Of a stretch of DNA of 34,993 nt, positions 11,241 to 20,092 are shown one piece after another. Numbering within the stretch: position 1 is the first letter of the stretch; the number at the start of each line of letters is the position of its first letter. The translations under genes and the position numbers were made by a program. The notes beneath the pieces were generated by a model. It was given only the letters and a program-made list of their open reading frames with translations. It had not been told where the DNA came from and ran no database searches. The stretch is from Spongiactinospora gelatinilytica (GTDB lineage Bacteria; Actinomycetota; Actinomycetes; Streptosporangiales; Streptosporangiaceae), in NCBI RefSeq assembly GCF_003236385.1, contig NZ_POUA01000031.1, positions 1 to 34,993 of the forward strand, written 5' to 3'.

Positions 11241-11633
11241 TCACCCGCCGACCAGCGGCAGCAGCCTGACGAAGGAGATCACCGGGTCGGCGGTCAGGTC
11301 GATCTCCTCGTCGAGGTCTTCGATCTGACGCTCACCGGTCAGCAGGACGAACCCGTTACGGGCGAAGGCCGCCTCCGCCGCGTCGGCCTGGCGCTCCCAG
11401 TCGATCGGGCGCGGCCTGCCCGCCTCGTAGCCGTTCAGCTCGGCCTCCGCCTCGAGCGGCGCGACCAGGCCGGGGCGGCGCCGCCTGGGACCCGCGTTGT
11501 GCCGGGCGACCTCCTCGCGCACCCGCAGCCGGACGAGCGCCCGCGCGGATATCCGATCGGGCAGGCCGGGCAGCGTGAACTCCTCCAGCGGCCTTCCGGC
11601 GGAGGTCTCGTCACGAAACGTCACAGATGTCAT
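11241..11633 (-). CDS. Conserved hypothetical protein, 130 residues
   Basis: Small, charged, soluble protein with no membrane segment or signal peptide. Visible features are an Arg-rich middle (GPRRRRPGLVAP), then LNGYEAG...IDWERQADAAEAAFARNGFVLLTGERQIEDLDEEIDL and a C-terminal ISFVRLLPLVGG. The layout resembles small actinobacterial proteins often found beside DUF4132/WGR-type genes, but no such gene is present here, so the resemblance gives no function. It is divergent from kptA, and the two starts are about 70 bp apart. Confidence 0.6.
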   Translation of the reverse strand: MTSVTFRDETSAGRPLEEFTLPGLPDRISARALVRLRVREEVARHNAGPRRRRPGLVAPLEAEAELNGYEAGRPRPIDWERQADAAEAAFARNGFVLLTGERQIEDLDEEIDLTADPVISFVRLLPLVGG

Positions 11634-11705
11634 TGCCCGGCCCCGCCCTCACCGATGTCGATGGACACCACCAATGAAAGCAACGTGGTCCGACAAAATG
11701 GCGGC

Positions 11706-12250
11706 ATGATGGATGACCGCCGATCGGTACGGATCTCGAAATATCTCGCCAAACACCTGCGGCACGAGCCCGGCCGGATCGGCATCGAACTCGATCCGAA
11801 CGGCTGGGTCGGCGCCGAGACACTGCTGAGCGCCGCCGCCGCGCACGGGTTCCCGATCTCGCGGGAGGAACTGGAACGCGTCGTCGCCGACAACGACAAG
11901 CGGCGATACGTCATCGAGGGCGGCCGGATCAGGGCCAGTCAGGGGCATTCGGTGCGGGTGGACCTGGGGCTGCCGGTCGTGCCGCCGCCCGCCGTCCTGT
12001 ACCACGGCACCGTGGGCCGCGACCTGGCCGCGATCCGCGCCGAAGGGCTGCGCCCGATGAACCGCCACCACGTCCACCTGTCGCCCGACCGGGAGACCGC
12101 GACCAGAGTGGGCGCGCGGTGCGGCCGGGCGGTGGTGCTGGTGGTGGACGCGGCGGCGATGCACGGGGCGGGCCATGAGTTCCACTCAGCGACAACGGGG
12201 TCTGGCTGGTCGGGGAGGTCCCGCCGGAGTTCGTCCGCTTCCCGGGGTGA
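11706..12250 (+). pseudogene. kptA: tRNA/RNA 2'-phosphotransferase (KptA/Tpt1), frameshifted near 3' end
   Basis: Tpt1/KptA enzymes remove a 2'-phosphate from RNA using NAD+. From ATG 11706 the protein shows the N-terminal RISKYLAKHLRHEP (catalytic Arg in LRH), LYHGT (catalytic His), RHHVHLS and RCGRAVVLVVDA. After GHEFH the frame breaks: the expected continuation (HLSDNGVWLVGEVPPEFV.F) is encoded one frame over from 12187 to the TGA at 12248-12250. Restoring one C at 12185/12186 (CACTC to CACCTC) repairs it. Unrepaired, the frame runs to 12827 antisense through the next gene, which is not credible. Either a recent pseudogene, a sequencing error, or a protein lacking about 20 C-terminal residues. 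Repaired, it ends 10 bp before the convergent neighbour. Confidence 0.82.
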
Positions 12251-12260
12251 AGGCGCGGGA

Positions 12261-12902
12261 TCAGCAGAAGACGAGGGCCGCGCCGGTGATCACGGAACGG
12301 CGGGCGGCACTGATGAGCTGCAGGCAGGTGAACGCCTCGACCCCGTAGCGCCGCCACCCGGCGGCGGCCGGGCCCTCGCCGTCGATGGCCTCCTCGACCT
12401 CCTGCGACCACGGATCGAGGCCGGCGGGCAGGCCCAGCATGGCGGCCAGGCGCTCGCATTCGGCCAGCAGCCGCTGGGAGGAGCCGACATCCGCGCTGGT
12501 GATCGAGTCGTCGTAGAGGACGTCGGCGAAATCGACGGGGAGGTAGTAGCCCTCGGCGTCGCTGTGGTGGACCAGGTGGTCGAACCCGCCGCCGTCGGGG
12601 TCGCCGTCGTAGGCGGCGCGCAGCAGCGGGTCGGCCGAGGGATCGCCGCCCGCGGCGAGCGGCGGCGGCAGCATCCCGGCGTGTGCCACGTGGACGGCGA
12701 GCCGGCGCAGGTGGTGCAGCCCGCGGTAGCCGTACATCTCGTATTCGGCCGGCCGCTCCCCGGGCTCCGGTGGCTCGTGCCAGGCGGGCAGCCCGGCCAG
12801 CGTGAGCAGGCGCCGCAGGGCGGATAATTCGGCGGTGATTTCGGCCCGGGTGTCCGGGCCGTCGGCGGCGCCGAGGATGCCGACGACGATGGCGAGTCCC
12901 AT
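12261..12902 (-). CDS. Conserved hypothetical protein, 213 residues
   Basis: Soluble, acidic protein of unknown function. The ATG at 12902 is followed by GLAIVVGILGAADGPDTRAEITAELSALRRLL, then EYEMYGYRGLHHLRRLAVHVA, GGFDHLVHHSDAEGYYLPVDFADVLYDD, and a helical C-terminal part with SSQRLLAECERLAAMLGLPAGLDPW. The pattern 'YYLPVDF..VL.D..I....VGSS..LL.EC..LA..LGL' is shared with other actinobacterial hypotheticals in my recollection, none characterised. No motif gives an enzymatic role. It ends 10 bp from the repaired kptA stop and is divergent from the HTH gene that leads the resection operon. Confidence 0.7.
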   Translation of the reverse strand: MGLAIVVGILGAADGPDTRAEITAELSALRRLLTLAGLPAWHEPPEPGERPAEYEMYGYRGLHHLRRLAVHVAHAGMLPPPLAAGGDPSADPLLRAAYDGDPDGGGFDHLVHHSDAEGYYLPVDFADVLYDDSITSADVGSSQRLLAECERLAAMLGLPAGLDPWSQEVEEAIDGEGPAAAGWRRYGVEAFTCLQLISAARRSVITGAALVFC

Positions 12903-12986: not shown

Positions 12987-13703
12987 ATGGACGCATCTAT
13001 GGACACGGCAGAGCTGTTGAGCGAGGTCCGCGAGCTGCGCGGACAGGGCAGATCGCCCAAGGAGATCGCGCGGGCGCTCGGCGTCCCCCCGGCGGTCATC
13101 ACGCCCCTGGTCCGCGCCGTGGCGGCGGAGAAGGCGGCCGGCGACGCCGGGCCGGGCCGGGCCGAGCTGGTGGGGTGCTGGGTGAGCGCCGGGTGGAGCG
13201 CAGGGCTCACGATCGACGCCTCGCGGCAGTGGCCCGACCCCGCCCCGGAGGGCGACCGCGCGGCGGGCATGGTCAGCGTGCTGGTGGCCCGCAGGCACGG
13301 CTATGACAACACGCTGGTCTGCGGCTATCTGGTGGACACCTACTGCCTGGGTGCGAAGAACGCGTTCGGGCCGCAGGTGATGAGCGAACTGGAGCTGCGG
13401 CGCTGGCGGGAGTTCTTCTTCAGCGACTACTCCTCGGGATGGACCGAGGCGCCGATCGAGCTGGCCGCCGACCTGGTGTTCGGCGGGGTCGAGTACGCCC
13501 GCGGGCTCGGCTTCGAGCCGCACCAGGACTACGCGCGCTGCGCCGATCACCTCGGGCCGTGGGAAGGGCCTTCGGCGATCACTTTCGGGCGGGACGGAAA
13601 GCCGTTCTACATGTCCGGCCCCGACGACGATGCCCGTAAGGTGATCAGAACGCTGGAGAGAACGCTCGGCGACGCCAGTAAATTCGATTATTTCATCGCA
13701 TAA
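12987..13703 (+). CDS. HTH-containing hypothetical protein leading the resection operon
   Basis: A 238-residue protein. Residues ~5-50 (TAELLSEVRELRGQGRSPKEIARALGVPPAVITPLVRAVA) form a helix-turn-helix. The rest is a distinct domain without an assigned function: VLVARRHGYDNTLVCGYLVDTYCLGAKNAFGP, then FGGVEYARGLGFEPHQDYARCADHLGPWEG and ITFGRDGKPFYMSGPDDDARKVIRTL. The pattern GVEYARxLGFxPHxD is recognisable in other actinobacterial hypotheticals. It lies 30 bp upstream of the HerA-like gene on the same strand, so it is likely cotranscribed. It may be the regulator or an accessory factor of the complex. ATG 12987 or 12999 are both possible starts; the promoter position favours the first. Confidence 0.7.
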   Translation: MDASMDTAELLSEVRELRGQGRSPKEIARALGVPPAVITPLVRAVAAEKAAGDAGPGRAELVGCWVSAGWSAGLTIDASRQWPDPAPEGDRAAGMVSVLVARRHGYDNTLVCGYLVDTYCLGAKNAFGPQVMSELELRRWREFFFSDYSSGWTEAPIELAADLVFGGVEYARGLGFEPHQDYARCADHLGPWEGPSAITFGRDGKPFYMSGPDDDARKVIRTLERTLGDASKFDYFIA

Positions 13704-13733
13704 GCGCAATTTCATTGGTTGGGGGATGGTTTG

Positions 13734-15515
13734 GTGATCGACGACGCCCCGGTCCTCGCCGGCGGTGACGCCGAGCCGGGGGAGGCCGTCGGGCGGGTGC
13801 TCGGCACCCAGGCGGCCTCGCCGCTGTCGTTCTGGGTCGGGTTCGAACCCGGCAGGATCGCCCAGCTCGACGACGTCGTGGTGACCAGGCGAGACGTGCC
13901 GGGATACGGCCCGGTCCTGGTGGCCGGGGTGGTCACGGCGGTCGAGGCGCGGCACGAAGGCGCGACCTACGACTCCGACGTCTTCCTGATCGCCGAGGGC
14001 GCGCTGCCCGCCGCCGTCGTGGAGGTCGCCGAGGTCCGCGTCACCCGGGTGGAGCCCGAGGTGTTCGTGCCGCCGCTGCCCGGCGCGCTGGTCTACAAGG
14101 CGGGGTCGGCCGACCGCGAGCAGGCGCTCTACTTCGACGTCATGGAGCGCAGGGTCCCGATCGGGCTCGGCCGCGACGGGCACCCGATGTACGTCAACTT
14201 CGACTTCCTGGACGGCACGCGTGGCGCGCACGTGTCGATCTCCGGGGTCTCCGGCGTGGCCACCAAGACCTCCTTCGCGACCTTTCTGGTCTACTCGATC
14301 TTCAACTCCCCGGCCCTGGGCGCGGAGGCCGCCAACACCAAGGCGCTGATCTTCTCGGTCAAGGGCGAGGATCTGCTGTTCCTCGACCACGCCAACACCC
14401 GGCTGGATTCGGAGGCGATCCGCGCCTACGGCCGTCTCGGGCTGCCCGCCAAGCCGTTCCAGAGCGTGCACGTCTTCGCCCCGCCCCGGCCCGGCGACCC
14501 CAACGGCGTGCCGCACGTCTCCTCGCGCACCCACGGGGTCGGCTCCTACTACTGGACCCTGCACGAGTTCTGCCGCGAGGAACTGCTGCGCTTCGTGTTC
14601 GCCGACGCCGACGACGAGCGCGCCCAATATTCCATGCTGGTCGGCCAGGTCGCGGCCAGGCTGCGGGCGTGGGCCGAGCCGGTGGGCGACGGCGGGGCGG
14701 TGCTGATCCGCACCCCGGACGGCGAGGCCACCCCCGCCATCCGCACCTTCCCCGACCTGGTCGAGGTCATCGACCAGCGGCTCGCCGACGAGGGCACCCG
14801 CGCGGTGTGGGCGGGCGCGCAGGTGCCGTTGGGCACGGTCAACGCGTTCCTGCGGCGGCTGCGCAGCGCGATCAGGCCGCTTTCGCCGATCGTCCGCGGC
14901 GACCTGCCGGCCGCGGCGGCGCATTCGATCCGCACCTCTGACGCCCAGGTCACCATCGTCGACCTGCACAACCTGCCCGAGCGGGCGCAGCGGTTCGTGG
15001 TCGGCGTGGTGCTGCGCGGCGAGTTCGCCCGCAAGGAGAGCACCGGCTCGGCCCGCCCGCTGCTGTTCGTGGTGCTCGACGAGCTGAACAAGTACGCCCC
15101 CCGCGAGGGCGACTCGCCGATCAAGGAGATCCTGCTGGACGTCGCCGAGCGCGGGCGCTCCCTCGGGGTGATCCTGATCGGGGCGCAGCAGACCGCCTCG
15201 GAGGTCGAACGCCGGATCGTGGCCAACTGCGCGGTCAGGGTCGCCGGGCGGCTCGACGCGGCCGAGGCCGCGCGTTCGGAGTACGGCTGGCTGCCCCCGG
15301 CCGCCCGGGAGCGCGCGACCATCGCCAAGCCGGGCACCATGTTCGTCGCCCAGCCGGAGATCCCGGTGCCGCTCACGGTGAACTTCCCGTTCCCGGCCTG
15401 GGCGACCCGCCCCGCCGAGGCGGCGCCGCTGCCGGTGACGACGGCGGCGAGACCGGCCGACCCGTTCGCCGGGCTGCCCGGGACCGCACCGGAAGACGAC
15501 ATCCCTCCGTTCTGA
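13734..15515 (+). CDS. HerA-like hexameric ATPase/helicase with unusual P-loop
   Basis: A 593-residue HerA/FtsK-superfamily ATPase, expected to form a DNA-translocating hexamer that works with NurA and Mre11-Rad50 in resecting DNA ends. The N-terminal ~125 residues form a HAS-barrel-like beta domain (VGRVLGTQAASPLSFWVGFEPG). The P-loop region reads GVSGVATKTS (171-180): K178 and T179 are kept but the Gly before Lys is Thr, and one residue is extra relative to GATGSGKS. Walker B is LLFVVLDELNKYAP (D449, E450), and the C-terminal sensor/Arg-finger part is IGAQQTASEVERRIVANCAVRVAGR. GTG 13734 has GGGGGA about seven bases upstream; TTG 13719 is less likely. The sbcD start follows by 7 bp. Confidence 0.85.
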   Translation: MIDDAPVLAGGDAEPGEAVGRVLGTQAASPLSFWVGFEPGRIAQLDDVVVTRRDVPGYGPVLVAGVVTAVEARHEGATYDSDVFLIAEGALPAAVVEVAEVRVTRVEPEVFVPPLPGALVYKAGSADREQALYFDVMERRVPIGLGRDGHPMYVNFDFLDGTRGAHVSISGVSGVATKTSFATFLVYSIFNSPALGAEAANTKALIFSVKGEDLLFLDHANTRLDSEAIRAYGRLGLPAKPFQSVHVFAPPRPGDPNGVPHVSSRTHGVGSYYWTLHEFCREELLRFVFADADDERAQYSMLVGQVAARLRAWAEPVGDGGAVLIRTPDGEATPAIRTFPDLVEVIDQRLADEGTRAVWAGAQVPLGTVNAFLRRLRSAIRPLSPIVRGDLPAAAAHSIRTSDAQVTIVDLHNLPERAQRFVVGVVLRGEFARKESTGSARPLLFVVLDELNKYAPREGDSPIKEILLDVAERGRSLGVILIGAQQTASEVERRIVANCAVRVAGRLDAAEAARSEYGWLPPAARERATIAKPGTMFVAQPEIPVPLTVNFPFPAWATRPAEAAPLPVTTAARPADPFAGLPGTAPEDDIPPF

Positions 15516-15522
15516 GGAACAC

Positions 15523-16680
15523 ATGAAGATCTTGCACACGGCCGACTGGCATGTCGGCAAGGTCCTGAAGGGACGTTCCCGGCTGGACGAGCACCGCGCG
15601 GTGCTCCGCGAGCTGGTCACGCTGGCCAGACGCGAAGACGTGGACGCGGTGGTCGTGGCGGGCGACCTGTTCGACACCTCCGCGCCCACCCCCGAGGCGC
15701 AGGGCCTGGTGCTGCCCGCGCTGATGGCGCTGCGCGAGGGCGGGCGCGACGTCGTGGTGCTGGCGGGCAACCACGACAACCCGCAGCTCCTGGAGGTCTA
15801 CCGGCCGGTGCTCGGCAAGCTCGGCATCCAGGTGGTGGGCGGCTTTCGCCGCCCGGAGGCGGGCGGCACGCTGTCCTTCACCGCCCGCTCGGGCGAGCCG
15901 GTCCGGCTGGCCGTGCTCCCGTTCCTGTCGCACCGGTACGTCATCCGCGCGGCCGAGGTGCTGGCCGGTACCGCCGCCGACCACAACCGCGACTACGCGG
16001 GCCGGATCGGCGAGCTGATCGGCGCGCTCACCGCCGGCTTCGCCGCCGACACCGTCAACCTGGTCACCACGCACGGCACGCTGCCCGGCGGGAAGTTCGG
16101 CGGCGGCGAGCGGGAGGCCCAGTCGATCTTCTCCTACTACTTCGAGGCCGCCGCGTTCCCGTCCACCACCCAGTACGCCGCGCTCGGCCACCTGCACCGC
16201 CGCCAGCAGATCCCCGGCCCCTGCCCGATCTGGTACTCCGGCTCGCCGCTGGCGGTCGACTTCGGCGAGGAGGCCAACGCGCCCGGCGCGCTGCTGGTCA
16301 CCGTCGAGCCCGGCCGTCCCGCCGTGGTGCGCGAGATCGCCTTCGACGCGCCCCGCGCGCTGGCCACCGTACGCGGCACGCTCGAACGTCTTTCCGCCGT
16401 GGCCGCCGACCTCGTGGACACCGAGACCTGGCTGCGCGTGATCGTGGAGGAGAAACCCCGCCCCGGGCTCGCCGACACCGTCAGGGAGATCCTGCCCGGC
16501 GCCATCGAAGTGGTGCTCGACGAGCGGTTCCGCCCTGTCAACCCGGTGCGCCAGGCCGGTCCGGCAGCGACCGGGCGCAGCCCGAGGGAGCTGTTCCGCG
16601 ACTACCTGACCGCCGCCGGACGGCACGACGACAACGTCGCCGCGCTGTTCGACCGGCTCTATGACGAGGTGACCACCTGA
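15523..16680 (+). CDS. sbcD: Exonuclease SbcD / Mre11 nuclease subunit
   Basis: Mn2+-dependent phosphoesterase that, with SbcC, cleaves DNA hairpins and processes double-strand ends. The 385-residue protein has all metal-ligand motifs: DWHVG (D8, H10), GDLFD (D48), GNHDN (N83, H84), THG (H184) and GHLHR (H223, H225). The capping domain follows from about residue 280. The ATG is preceded by GAGGA overlapping the herA stop region, and its own stop shares one base with the sbcC start (TGATG), so translation is coupled. Together with HerA upstream and the NurA-like gene downstream it forms the archaeal-style resection set. Confidence 0.95.
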   Translation: MKILHTADWHVGKVLKGRSRLDEHRAVLRELVTLARREDVDAVVVAGDLFDTSAPTPEAQGLVLPALMALREGGRDVVVLAGNHDNPQLLEVYRPVLGKLGIQVVGGFRRPEAGGTLSFTARSGEPVRLAVLPFLSHRYVIRAAEVLAGTAADHNRDYAGRIGELIGALTAGFAADTVNLVTTHGTLPGGKFGGGEREAQSIFSYYFEAAAFPSTTQYAALGHLHRRQQIPGPCPIWYSGSPLAVDFGEEANAPGALLVTVEPGRPAVVREIAFDAPRALATVRGTLERLSAVAADLVDTETWLRVIVEEKPRPGLADTVREILPGAIEVVLDERFRPVNPVRQAGPAATGRSPRELFRDYLTAAGRHDDNVAALFDRLYDEVTT

Positions 16681-19124
16681 TGCGCCCGCTGCACCTGCAC
16701 CTCGCCGACTTCGGCAGCTTCCGCGAGCCGGTCACCATCGACTTCACCGACGTCGACTACTTCGCCCTGGTCGGCCCGACCGGGGCCGGCAAGAGCACGG
16801 TCATCGACGCGATCTGCTTCGCCCTGTACGGCACGGTCCCCCGCTGGGGCAGGGAGAACGTGATCGCGCACGCGCTCGCGCCGTCCGCGGCCTCCGGCAA
16901 GGTGGCCCTGGTGTTCGAGAGCGCCGGCCGCCGGCACGGGGTGGTCCGCGCGCTGCAACGCGACGCCAAGGGCCGGGTGCACACCAAGGAGGCCAGGCTC
17001 GACGAGCTGGACCCGTCCGTGCCCGCCACCGCGGGGCTGGACGACCTGATGGGCGCGGTGCTGCGGCCGATCGCCGAGGGCGACGCGGTCACCGCCGAGG
17101 TCCAGCGGGTCACCGGCCTGGAATACCGGTTCTTCACCCAGTGCGTGGTGCTTCCGCAGGGCAGGTTCGCCGAGTTCCTGCACGCCCAGCCGCGCGAACG
17201 GCAGGACCTTCTGGTCCAGTTGCTCGACGCCGACGTCTATGAGCGGATCAGGCAGCGCGCCGTACGCGAGGAGGACGCCGCCAAGCAGGCCGCGGCCTTC
17301 GCGCGGGGCCGGCTGGCCCGGCTGGCCGACGCCGACGAGGCGGCCGAGCAGGCCGCCGCGGCCCGCCTCGAATCGCTGCGCGGCCTCGCCGAGCGGGCCA
17401 GGAGCGACCTGCGGGCGCTGCGCGAACGCGACGACGCGGCGGCGGCGCTGCGCCAGGAGCGTACGGCGGCGCGTCAGCGCCTCACCGCCCTGACCGCCCT
17501 GGCCATGCCGCCCGACGTCCCCACGCTCGCCGACTCCGTACGGCAGGCCGCCGAGGCGCTGGCCCGGATGTCCGCCGAGGTCGCCAAGCTGGCCGAGGCC
17601 GAGCAGCGGGCCGACGACGAGCGCGCCGCGCTCGGCGACAAGGCCGCGCTGACCGCCCTGCTCACCGCCGTGGACGACCAGGAGAGGGTGGCCCGCGCGC
17701 TCGGTTCGGCCAAGGCCGCCGCCGCGTCCGCCGCCACCGGGGCGGCCAAGCCGGCCGAGGCCGAACAACGGGCCGCCGCGGCGCTCGCCGAGGCCGAACG
17801 CGACCGCGAGCGGCTGCGCGACGCCCACGCCGCCGCCGACCTGGCCCGCCGCCTGGCCGTCGGCGAGCCCTGCCCGACCTGCCTGCGGGCCATCACCGAG
17901 CTGCCGCACCACCCCGCGCCCGCCGATCTCGGCGCGGCCGAGCGTACGGTCCGCGCCCGCGGAGCCGACCTCGAACGCGCCCGCGCCGACCGCCGCCGGG
18001 CCGAGGTCGAGGCCGCCAGGGTCAAGCAGAAGGCCGACGAGCTGGAAGGCCAGCTCGCGGTGCTGGCCGCCCGGGCCGCCGCCGCCGACCGGGCGCGGGT
18101 GGCCGCGGAGCTGACCGCGATCGAGGCCGCCGAAGAACGCCTGGCCCGGGCCCGGCGGGCCACCCGGGCGGCCAGAGGCGAGCTGGCCCGCGCCGAACGC
18201 CGGGCCGCGGAGCTGCGGGAGAAGTCCGAGCGGTCCTGGCGCGAGGTGGACGCCGCCCGCGACCGGGTGGTCGTGCTGGGCGCCCCGCCGATCGACCGCG
18301 CCGACCTGCACGCGGCCTGGACCTCACTGCTGTCCTGGCGGGAGGAGGCCGCCACCGCCGAGCGCAAGGCGCTGGGCGGCGTGGAGACCGAGCTGGCTGC
18401 CGTCGAGCGGGCCCGCGACCAGGAGCGGTCGGCCCTGGTGGCCCGGCTGGCCGGGCACGAGGTGCAGGTGGCGGCCGGTGCCACGCCGGAGACCATCCAC
18501 GAGACGCTGGCCCGGTCGGTCGTTCACGCCGAACACCGGCTCGCCCGGGTCAGGGAGAACCGCGTCCAGGCCAAGGAGCTGGCCGAGCAGGCCGCGGCCA
18601 AGGAGCGCGAGGAGCAGGTGGCGCACGAGCTGACCCTGCTGCTGCGGGCCAACGCCTTCGAGCGGTGGCTGTGCGCGGAGGCCCTGGCGCTGCTGGTGGC
18701 CGAGGCGTCTGTGACGCTGAACGACCTGTCCGGCGGCCAGTACGAGCTGGTGCTCGGCGAGCGCGGCGAGATCGAGGTCATCGACCACGCCGAGGCGGGG
18801 CTGCGGCGCAGCGCCCGCACGCTGTCGGGCGGGGAGACCTTCCAGGCGGCGCTGGCCCTGGCCCTCGCGCTGTCCAGCCAGGTCGCCGGGCTCGCCGCGA
18901 CCGCGGCCAGAAGCCTGGACTCGATCTTCCTGGACGAGGGTTTCGGCACGCTCGACCCGGCCACCCTCGACACGGTGGCCGCCACGCTGGAACGCCTGGC
19001 AGCCGGCAACGACCGGATGGTCGGCGTGGTCACCCACGTGCCCGCGCTGGCCGACCGGGTGCCGGTGCGCTTCGAGGTCAGCCGCGACGGCCAGGGTTCG
19101 CACCTGCGGAGGGTGGTGTCGTGA
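16680..19124 (+). CDS. sbcC: Exonuclease SbcC / Rad50 ATPase subunit
   Basis: SMC-like ATPase that clamps DNA and drives SbcD. The 814-residue protein has Walker A GPTGAGKST (32-40), a long Ala/Glu/Arg-rich coiled coil, a zinc hook EPCPTC (C398, C401) almost exactly in the middle, the returning coiled coil, the ABC signature LSGGE (715-719) and Walker B SIFLDEGFGTLD (D752, E753). It is shorter than E. coli SbcC (about 1050), mainly in the coiled coil, which would give shorter arms. It begins inside the sbcD stop and ends in a GTGA overlap with the NurA-like gene. Codon use is strongly GC-biased like its neighbours, so I see no sign of recent transfer. Confidence 0.95.
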   Translation: MRPLHLHLADFGSFREPVTIDFTDVDYFALVGPTGAGKSTVIDAICFALYGTVPRWGRENVIAHALAPSAASGKVALVFESAGRRHGVVRALQRDAKGRVHTKEARLDELDPSVPATAGLDDLMGAVLRPIAEGDAVTAEVQRVTGLEYRFFTQCVVLPQGRFAEFLHAQPRERQDLLVQLLDADVYERIRQRAVREEDAAKQAAAFARGRLARLADADEAAEQAAAARLESLRGLAERARSDLRALRERDDAAAALRQERTAARQRLTALTALAMPPDVPTLADSVRQAAEALARMSAEVAKLAEAEQRADDERAALGDKAALTALLTAVDDQERVARALGSAKAAAASAATGAAKPAEAEQRAAAALAEAERDRERLRDAHAAADLARRLAVGEPCPTCLRAITELPHHPAPADLGAAERTVRARGADLERARADRRRAEVEAARVKQKADELEGQLAVLAARAAAADRARVAAELTAIEAAEERLARARRATRAARGELARAERRAAELREKSERSWREVDAARDRVVVLGAPPIDRADLHAAWTSLLSWREEAATAERKALGGVETELAAVERARDQERSALVARLAGHEVQVAAGATPETIHETLARSVVHAEHRLARVRENRVQAKELAEQAAAKEREEQVAHELTLLLRANAFERWLCAEALALLVAEASVTLNDLSGGQYELVLGERGEIEVIDHAEAGLRRSARTLSGGETFQAALALALALSSQVAGLAATAARSLDSIFLDEGFGTLDPATLDTVAATLERLAAGNDRMVGVVTHVPALADRVPVRFEVSRDGQGSHLRRVVS

Positions 19125-20092
19125 CGACGACGATGAGAGATTCGCGGTTCAGCGTCGATCCGTGGGACCCGGGCTACGCGGCGGCGCTCACCAAGGAGGC
19201 CCTGGCCGAGCTGGGCTCCACCAGCGCCGAACTCGACCTCGATGTGGAGCTGGCGGCGGCCGACTGGCGGCCGGTCGGCCCCGCCCCCGGCGCCACCCCG
19301 CCCGGCGTACTGCTGGTCGCCGACGGCGTGCGCCGGATCGACGCCCGGGTGTGGATGCACGACCCACAGGGGGCGACACCGACGCCCGGCATCGCCGCCT
19401 CCTACGCGGCGGGGATCGTCAGGTGCGGCCCGGAGGGTGCCTCGCTGGCCGCGATCGACGTGTGCCGGTCGGTGTTCAGCGCCGCGCCGTACGCATCCGA
19501 CGTGAAGACACCGGCCGCCGTCTACCAGGCGCTGCCCGCCGCCGACGCCAGCATGGACGAGCTGTCGCTGGCGTTGCAGCGGCAGGTCACCCACCTGGAG
19601 GTCGAGCTGGCCGTACGCCACCGGCGGCAGGAGGGGGCGGACGAGCTGCTGCTGGTGGACGGCCCGTTGCGCGGCCGCACCCACCTGCCGCGCACGGTCG
19701 GCTACATCAAGACCCACCACACCGCCTACCTGCCGCCGCCACAGGCGGCGGTGGTGTCGGCGCTCGCGCCCGCGCAGCGCACCCCGATCTTCCTGATGGG
19801 CACGAGCTGGCGGCGGCATGCCTGGTATGTCCGGCTGCCATCCGGATCGGCGACCCCGTGGGCCGGGGTCGCCCGCTGCGAGGCCGGGGCCGACCTGCGG
19901 CCGGACGAGGTGATCGAGCTGGCCGACTCGATCACGCTGGCCCTGCCGCAGCTCGCCGGGGTCGATTACAAAGATCCGCGGGCCCCCCAGAACCTCACGC
20001 CGATCGGCGGCCTGGAAAAGCTGCTGCGTCACCGGCTGGGCGACCCGCGGCTGCTCTACCGCGCGCTGCGCGCCGCCGCCGCTGCGGCGTAG
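19121..20092 (+). CDS. NurA-family nuclease
   Basis: A 323-residue protein with the layout of NurA, the nuclease that pairs with HerA and degrades the 5' strand at DNA ends. VLLVADGVRRIDARVW (D68, D74) is the first acidic metal-binding segment; ELVAVRHRR-like helix follows, then LLLVDGPLRGR (D180) as the second acidic segment and YIKTHH (K197, H199, H200), which match NurA's conserved Lys/His region. The C-terminal part (SDSITLALP, DPRAPQNLTPIGGLEKLLRHRLGD) fits the family's end. It starts in the sbcC stop (GTGA). The position at the end of a HerA-SbcD-SbcC operon supports the call strongly; sequence alone would give a weaker one. Confidence 0.8.
   Translation: MTTTMRDSRFSVDPWDPGYAAALTKEALAELGSTSAELDLDVELAAADWRPVGPAPGATPPGVLLVADGVRRIDARVWMHDPQGATPTPGIAASYAAGIVRCGPEGASLAAIDVCRSVFSAAPYASDVKTPAAVYQALPAADASMDELSLALQRQVTHLEVELAVRHRRQEGADELLLVDGPLRGRTHLPRTVGYIKTHHTAYLPPPQAAVVSALAPAQRTPIFLMGTSWRRHAWYVRLPSGSATPWAGVARCEAGADLRPDEVIELADSITLALPQLAGVDYKDPRAPQNLTPIGGLEKLLRHRLGDPRLLYRALRAAAAAA

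Follow-up and report, generated by a model that had tools for sequence, protein, structure and literature searches.

A HerA-SbcD-SbcC-NurA operon conserved across Actinomycetota and an SSB-like tail on its HerA motor

Background

Do actinobacteria possess a counterpart of the archaeal machinery for processing DNA ends, and if so, does it serve repair, defence against invaders, or two unconnected purposes? The question is raised by a stretch of 34,993 nucleotides from Spongiactinospora gelatinilytica (contig NZ_POUA01000031.1; the whole stretch is hereafter called the window), in which four long genes encoding HerA, SbcD, SbcC and NurA follow one another head-to-tail on the + strand at positions 13719-20092. 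Constantinesco et al. reportedly described in 2004 an archaeal operon of herA, mre11, rad50 and nurA. Such an operon is on record (PMC8708640, PMC2288612) and combines the same four functions as the genes studied here; the differences are that the window HerA and NurA are of the Deinococcus type and that this HerA has a tail resembling that of the single-stranded DNA-binding protein (SSB). For bacteria, the consulted part of a review lists Actinobacteria among those having NurA and HerA and gives Deinococcus radiodurans as the only one studied (PMC8708640), and a 2023 structural paper, in the consulted part, restricts the pair to a small number of bacteria, for example Deinococcus-Thermus, that lack RecBCD (PMC9960219). 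Here we describe the operon of the window, its distribution and the tail of its motor, and propose that the four genes probably constitute a conserved bacterial machine for processing DNA ends, serving mainly in DNA repair, with a motor that carries SSB-type docking tails.

Results

Identity of the four proteins

Coordinates and sequence matches agree with the initial annotation in assigning four overlapping or nearly overlapping genes to HerA, SbcD, SbcC and NurA, with gene ends overlapping by a few bases at 16680 (SbcD/SbcC) and at 19121-19124 (SbcC/NurA). The features are as follows.

13719-15515, + strand: HerA, 598 residues from TTG 13719, or 593 residues from GTG 13734, the likelier start by a codon-based gene caller
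15456-15512, + strand: C-terminal DPF motif and SSB-like tip of HerA; low predicted local distance difference test score (pLDDT), PF end kept in relatives
15523-16680, + strand: SbcD/Mre11 nuclease, 385 residues (TIGR00619, 6.1e-51)
16680-19124, + strand: SbcC/Rad50 ATPase, 814 residues, CPTC zinc-hook motif at residue 398 (TIGR00618, 3.8e-72)
19121-20092, + strand: NurA nuclease, 323 residues from GTG 19121 or 319 residues from ATG 19133 (matches 7f6d_H)
12987-13703, + strand: neighbour protein of 238 residues, judged to lie outside the conserved unit, with no homologue found at the operon loci of relatives

The initial annotation had made its reading hinge on a NurA-domain match of the last protein, and in the literal sense of a Pfam match there is none: the NurA model PF09376 has 0 matches across this genome, and the protein itself matches nothing in Pfam, PADLOC or NCBIfam at E-values up to 1. 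This is overruled by sequence comparison and fold. The protein matches D. radiodurans NurA (DrNurA; 7f6d_H, 5.5e-18) and, weakly, Thermotoga TM1739 (0.04). Its structure model (models were AlphaFold2 monomers of the window proteins and named relatives; here pLDDT 87.5) has DrNurA 7f6d_G as best Foldseek match (9.6e-18, template modelling (TM) score 0.68, 28% identity), followed by TM1739 (1zup), archaeal NurA (2ygk; 2.6e-7, 11% identity) and a TdpAB chain (8wfd_G, 1.2e-5). With the numbering aligned on the assumption that the PDB chain includes a tag of 20 residues, upon which three residues fit at once, DrNurA D53, K201 and R309 correspond to window D68, K197 and R287, invariant in 19 aligned sequences; in a wider alignment of 23 NurA proteins D68 is present at 90% or more and K197 and R287 are invariant. 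In short, the protein shows what marks the nuclease of a bacterial NurA-HerA pair of the Deinococcus type, namely an RNase H-like fold together with the key residues, both acidic and basic. A long, variable mid-protein insertion near residue 170-175 of the window protein is seen in the NurA of L014-L021, mostly from one family (f17).

HerA consists of a HAS-barrel and a RecA-like motor domain bearing Walker A (GVSGVATKTS) and Walker B (LDELNKY) residues, the combination by which a HerA is recognized, and of a disordered tail that ends in PEDDIPPF. No Pfam family rises above its cut-off and the PADLOC HerA model reaches 2e-6 at best; the sequence matches D. radiodurans HerA (DrHerA; 7f6d_B) at 8.4e-141 over most of its length. 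Foldseek places the model (pLDDT 76.3) closest to DrHerA 7wrw (1.1e-55, 46% identity, TM 0.82), with S. solfataricus HerA at 13-14% identity and defence HerAs at 11-16% among the matches listed. DrHerA K175/T176, D487/E488 and R495 are equivalent to window K183/T184, D454/E455 and R462, invariant in 16 aligned sequences; mutagenesis or structure is reported to show that these residues, and those of DrNurA named above, matter (PMC9960219). The Walker A is not read as degenerate, nor HerA as dead, because K175/T176 of DrHerA lie in the same SGxSGVATKTS. The window pair shares with D. radiodurans NurA-HerA (PMC9960219; PDB 7f6d, 7wrw, 7wrx) its families, key residues and this unusual Walker A, and differs from it in being joined to sbcCD, in a genome that also has an AdnAB-like pair.

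SbcD exceeds the cut-off of TIGR00619 and, in Pfam, those of Metallophos and SbcD_C. SbcC exceeds those of AAA_23 and SbcC_Walker_B; its TIGR00618 match falls under the model cut-off of 478.5 bits, as expected for a short SbcC. The features of SbcCD membership are present throughout the loci: the phosphoesterase motifs GNHD and GHxH in 99/99 SbcD proteins, DxH in 95 and GDxFD in 88 (a loose fifth pattern in only 34), and, in the 84 SbcC calls longer than 700 residues, the SGGE signature and Walker B in all, the CxxC hook in 83 and the Walker A pattern in 75. A second full SbcD is encoded in this genome on contig C281.

Conservation of the operon

The class sample consisted of a NurA search of 394 genomes, 24 of which matched, in 11 of 138 genera. 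All four genes are found in 20 of these (the window included), one of the 20 having HerA and NurA cut by contig ends; the misses are L047, cut within SbcC, L039, with NurA and an SbcC fragment, L032, with a broken NurA piece, and L033, a spurious-looking match without any operon gene. The genome of L039 (G311), in which HerA and SbcD were not found beside that fragment and no SbcD reaches the cut-off, probably holds a decaying operon. Named genomes scanned with a HerA alignment gave at least 566 relatives, the best 80 of which were analysed: in 65 loci the order is HerA-SbcD-SbcC-NurA, with all genes on one strand; contig ends truncate 13 others ahead of NurA and one (L089) immediately behind HerA, and in L074 HerA stands by itself. 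Among the taxa represented are Streptosporangiaceae, Actinomadura, Micromonosporaceae, Glycomyces, Actinophytocola, Pseudonocardia, Nocardioides and Microlunatus. Finally, a HerA search of 396 genomes across the phylum matched 129 at E<=1e-3, distant and chance matches included, from which 42 matches were selected manually (the 28 best from outside the class, then a choice among the further rows) and 40 loci retrieved; 32 of these deeper loci contain the whole set of four, NurA closing it in 18 and opening it in 14 (NurA-HerA-SbcD-SbcC), and five are cut by contig ends (L193, L195, L205, L208 and L213). Several have other genes between HerA and SbcD; a recurring fifth gene was considered for this place and rejected, the inserts inspected differing by eye, with some alike.

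Since 20/24, 65/80 and 32/40 loci keep all four genes, and contig ends account for 1, 14 and 5 of the misses, the linkage is too regular for chance. Adjacency of all four genes on one strand and their conservation as a set, the marks of an archaeal-type operon, are both found, and the survey of gene order proposed in the initial annotation shows the genes of the relatives recurring together, not scattered. Distance matrices of the four operon proteins over 78 loci, compared among themselves only, correlate at 0.90-0.96, as expected for joint inheritance. Plasmids of Sphaerospermopsis, Aulosira and Chlorohelix have the NurA-first order too; 6 plasmid records matched the HerA query, one of them a chromosome-sized Nonomuraea record. 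Genomes of family f58 encode a distant HerA (E about 1e-20 to 1e-30), in frames mostly of 630-1070 residues.

These gene orders bear on whether the four proteins act together at all. HerA-NurA and SbcCD could be two independent machines that share nothing but a promoter and have neither physical contact nor a functional hand-over: in several deeper loci unrelated genes stand between HerA and SbcD, AdnAB-like proteins are encoded as well, and in D. radiodurans the link of SbcCD to HerA-NurA is left open in the consulted part of one study (PMC4663267). Against this, the four genes stay together in both orders throughout the phylum as well as on plasmids of cyanobacteria and Chloroflexota, and Mre11 is reported to interact with HerA in Sulfolobus acidocaldarius (PMC2288612). 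We regard the independence of the two pairs as quite improbable.

The operon in one family

The family f37, which we take to be Micromonosporaceae as its loci share neighbours with named Micromonospora loci, keeps the operon throughout the sample. HerA is matched in 81/81 sampled genomes, 4 of which have it as two pieces, and in 44/44 genera; SbcD is matched in 81/81, starting at most 500 bp from HerA on the same strand in 73, lying within 10 kb in 6 more and on another contig in 2 (G821, G858). A second SbcD above the family cut-off is found in 3/81; 78/81 have none, and 14 others show only weak matches below the cut-off. Given the 73 close pairs and the 78 genomes without another SbcD above the cut-off, the operon usually holds the sole SbcD of the genome by this measure. 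Of 102 analysed loci, 51 have a reductase-type gene (cluster c5), which we read as RibD-like and which in most cases immediately precedes HerA. Presence of HerA in all sampled genomes, a usually sole SbcD and a recurring neighbour form the pattern of a housekeeping gene.

An SSB-like tip on HerA

In actinobacterial HerA the conserved core is followed by a variable tail, 29-60 residues long with the tip included; in the window protein, pLDDT is below 50 at residues 560-580 and 584-598. Among 101 HerA proteins (100 distinct sequences, some genomes possibly being in both locus sets), 100 end in PF and one in PY, the last six residues being exactly DDDIPF in 43 and DDIPPF in 13 and including at least two acidic residues in 94. 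The PF end occurs in 0 of the 1095 other called genes of the same loci, and likewise in none of 101 SbcC, 99 SbcD and 83 NurA calls. A DPF or DPW motif lies within the last 45 residues of 96/101 HerA proteins versus 3/1095 other genes.

Of the main SSB proteins of these genomes, 10/10 read end in EPPF, at least six with DPW before it, whereas the SSB paralogues encoded alongside do not have the tip. In E. coli the C-terminal tip of SSB (SSB-Ct) is given as DDDIPF (PMC5872125) and is reported to recruit at least 17 proteins, RecO among them (PMC10018359). HerA shares with SSB the acidic residues followed by IPF or PPF at the extreme C-terminus after a variable, disordered linker, which is what we required of an SSB-Ct-like end; the difference is that the HerA tip sits on a presumably hexameric motor for double-stranded DNA and not on a single-strand binding protein. 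Because deeper-branching HerA proteins mostly lack the PF end (see Discussion), yet commonly have DPF near the end (31/40), and because the cyanobacterial HerA of L057 has no tip, the PF tip seems, on sequence grounds, to be a lineage-specific gain on top of a more ancient DPF tail. The alignment with DrHerA stops before the last residues of the D. radiodurans protein.

Coexistence with AdnAB-like proteins

The genome encodes two adjacent proteins that each have a UvrD helicase and a PDDEXK_1 domain, which we take to be the AdnAB layout, and PDDEXK_1 proteins above the cut-off were found in 20/20 chosen genomes, 13 with NurA (G311 with its remnant operon only) and 7 without. The operon is therefore not an AdnAB replacement. 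The idea that this actinobacterium has an archaeal-style HerA-Mre11-Rad50-NurA set holds in its gene assignments and in its gist, and needs amending in that the proteins are of the Deinococcus type, are widespread in the phylum and coexist with an AdnAB-like pair.

Neighbourhood, mobile copies and defence

The neighbourhood bears on a different explanation, in which the machine degrades the linear DNA ends of phages and plasmids and repair is secondary. HerA-nuclease pairs with a defence function do exist: HerA has SIR2-HerA and DUF4297-HerA as distant fold matches, and TdpAB, the fold match of NurA noted above, has a defence role. NurA is moreover patchy in Actinomycetes (24/394).

We scanned with PADLOC the 112 neighbours that lie within two genes on each side of 32 loci outside Micromonosporaceae and Glycomycetaceae, the window included. 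The best 25 of 82 families matched are kinase-type models in 7 proteins, which by Pfam (best 25 of 132 families) are general protein kinases. Without these, 105 neighbours (32 loci) match 49 families, with a type IV restriction enzyme, HEC-06 and, in 2 proteins, type I methyltransferases among the best 25; genes at the third to fifth position outwards (111 proteins, 31 loci) match 34, the best 25 including restriction enzymes and Druantia-like helicases. As one protein can match many PADLOC models, 49 versus 34 families is no clear difference. Matches were traced by scanning 20 proteins singly: the operon of Nocardioides sp. URHA0020 (L090) is bracketed by restriction-type genes, for a type IV restriction enzyme and an Orf5/HEC-06-like protein, Microbispora L061 has a type I methyltransferase just upstream of the operon, and L053 a PDC-S27 match among its neighbours. 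To the four scanned neighbours of the operon in the window no match of this kind was traced, nor either of the two families having at least two members, and the gene at 12264-12902 matched no model. A few chromosomal copies thus lie in defence-rich places, without clear enrichment beside the operon.

Plasmid copies have defence-type company as well. On a Streptomyces plasmid the operon adjoins restriction-type genes and the Wadjet type II components JetA, JetB and JetC (matches up to 3.7e-162); it follows TIR and Swt1-HEPN genes on the Chlorohelix plasmid, and lies near cas2/cas6 on that of Sphaerospermopsis. On the Chlorohelix (L232:5514-7505) and Aulosira (L233:5324-7439) plasmids, a related sigma-70 factor, an unknown protein and an ImmA/IrrE-type peptidase stand directly upstream of NurA-HerA-SbcD-SbcC, a trio that looks like a damage-responsive control module. 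A named anti-phage system was sought through PADLOC and only single components matched (mad3 1.2e-25, LmuB 1.2e-19, mad8 1e-8, HerA 2e-6), which rules out MADS, Lamassu or another named defence system. NurA was found in none of 50,697 phage records, a result that bears little on defence. Four viral contigs of IMG/VR (L158-L161) encode a distant HerA (26-27% identity) and no NurA by the queries used; L161 also has a weak SbcD match.

On the other side of the balance stand the PADLOC counts, the presence of the operon HerA in every sampled f37 genome, usually with the only SbcD above the cut-off and often beside the same gene, and the identity of HerA to DrHerA (46%) versus that to the defence HerAs (11-16% among the matches listed). 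A primary role in defence against invaders is therefore, in our judgement, unlikely; we read the operon as a repair machine that is carried by mobile elements too, possibly for their own ends.

Boundary of the unit

The protein encoded at 12987-13703 had been put forward as a helix-turn-helix (HTH) protein and probable first gene of the operon. No Pfam HTH model reached its cut-off in this protein, and no homologue was found at 23 class loci and 80 named loci, some of which hold little upstream sequence. Genome G131 has both a homologue (contig C110) and the operon (contig C142), unlinked. The missing homologues and this unlinked one rule out an HTH regulator as first gene: the protein has no conserved linkage and is not a member of the unit. 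Further upstream, the + strand frame at 11499-12200, presumably related to RNA 2'-phosphotransferase (Tpt1/KptA), seems to lack the C-terminal portion, as a frameshift would cause, whether through an assembly error or as a pseudogene.

Discussion

Gene identities, active-site residues, linkage, parallel divergence and the conserved tail together suggest the following course of events at a DNA end. SbcCD would bind broken or blocked ends and clear them, and the HerA hexamer would then pull the duplex into a NurA dimer; by analogy with D. radiodurans biochemistry, the dimer would cut the 5' strand and leave a 3' overhang for RecA. Each of the six HerA subunits would carry a flexible, acidic PF tail of the SSB type, which most likely docks SSB partners such as RecO at the site of resection. 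Here the formation of the complex, the hand-over from SbcCD and the binding partner of the tail are what we infer. A reported role of the Thermus HerA homologue in UV survival (PMC5448004) is in line with repair.

Several points weigh against this proposal. Most sampled Actinomycetes lack NurA, the 24 matches among 394 including one spurious and one fragment; HerA stands alone in L074, L039 and L032 are degraded remnants, L198 and L201 have HerA without SbcD within about 9 kb, and L214 has no NurA match. The PF end is missing in 29/40 deeper-branching HerA proteins, including those of all 14 NurA-first loci, and only 4/40 combine PF with two acidic residues (11/40 end in PF). Defence-type genes flank some chromosomal copies, on both sides in Nocardioides L090, and the AdnAB-like proteins alongside leave the need for a second machine unexplained. 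To our knowledge, the operon has been the subject of no experiment in any actinobacterium. Deletions of nurA or herA in D. radiodurans or Thermus are reported to bring a modest change in resistance or even to improve it (PMC9960219), and a 2026 study of the Thermococcus complex, in the consulted part, questions end resection and proposes that the complex acts against viruses (PMC12977600). On balance we still hold a DNA-end processing machine, acting mainly in repair, to be probable.

A bolder version of it can be offered tentatively, as something we would rather doubt than expect: HerA may be an SSB mimic and motor in one, whose six tips recruit RecO or other SSB partners to the end, so that cleaning, resection and RecA loading would be coupled without prior coating by SSB. 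The operon might then be the main SbcCD-linked repair route of whole bacterial families, beside AdnAB.

SIR2-HerA, DUF4297-HerA and TdpAB resemble the operon in combining a HerA-type motor with a nuclease, TdpAB also sharing the NurA fold in one chain, and differ in the low identity of their HerA given above and, as far as we know, in forming complexes without SbcCD. A prior record of linkage is hepA-sbcD-sbcC of Oceanithermus profundus (PMC5448004), likewise a bacterial herA-type gene with sbcD and sbcC downstream; it concerns one species of Thermales, whereas the present set extends across Actinomycetota, with NurA last in many. The mostly open-access literature, searched by the titles and abstract openings of the entries listed, gave no report of the operon in actinobacteria, of HerA with SbcD in defence or of an SSB-type tip on HerA, no paper joining NurA, HerA and Micromonospora, and no TdpAB paper. 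That the operon is conserved in Actinomycetota, that it is usually the sole source of SbcD in one family and that HerA has an SSB-like tail are accordingly apparently new findings.

The role of HerA-NurA, in repair or in defence, is disputed, and mesophilic, culturable bacteria now become available for settling it. The SSB-like tail is a specific feature that can be tested cheaply, and the Nocardioides sp. URHA0020 locus is well suited to a search for a function in defence. For the biology of the group, the finding means that the HerA-NurA pair shares an operon with SbcCD in many actinobacteria, including every sampled genome of one large family, beside AdnAB-like proteins.

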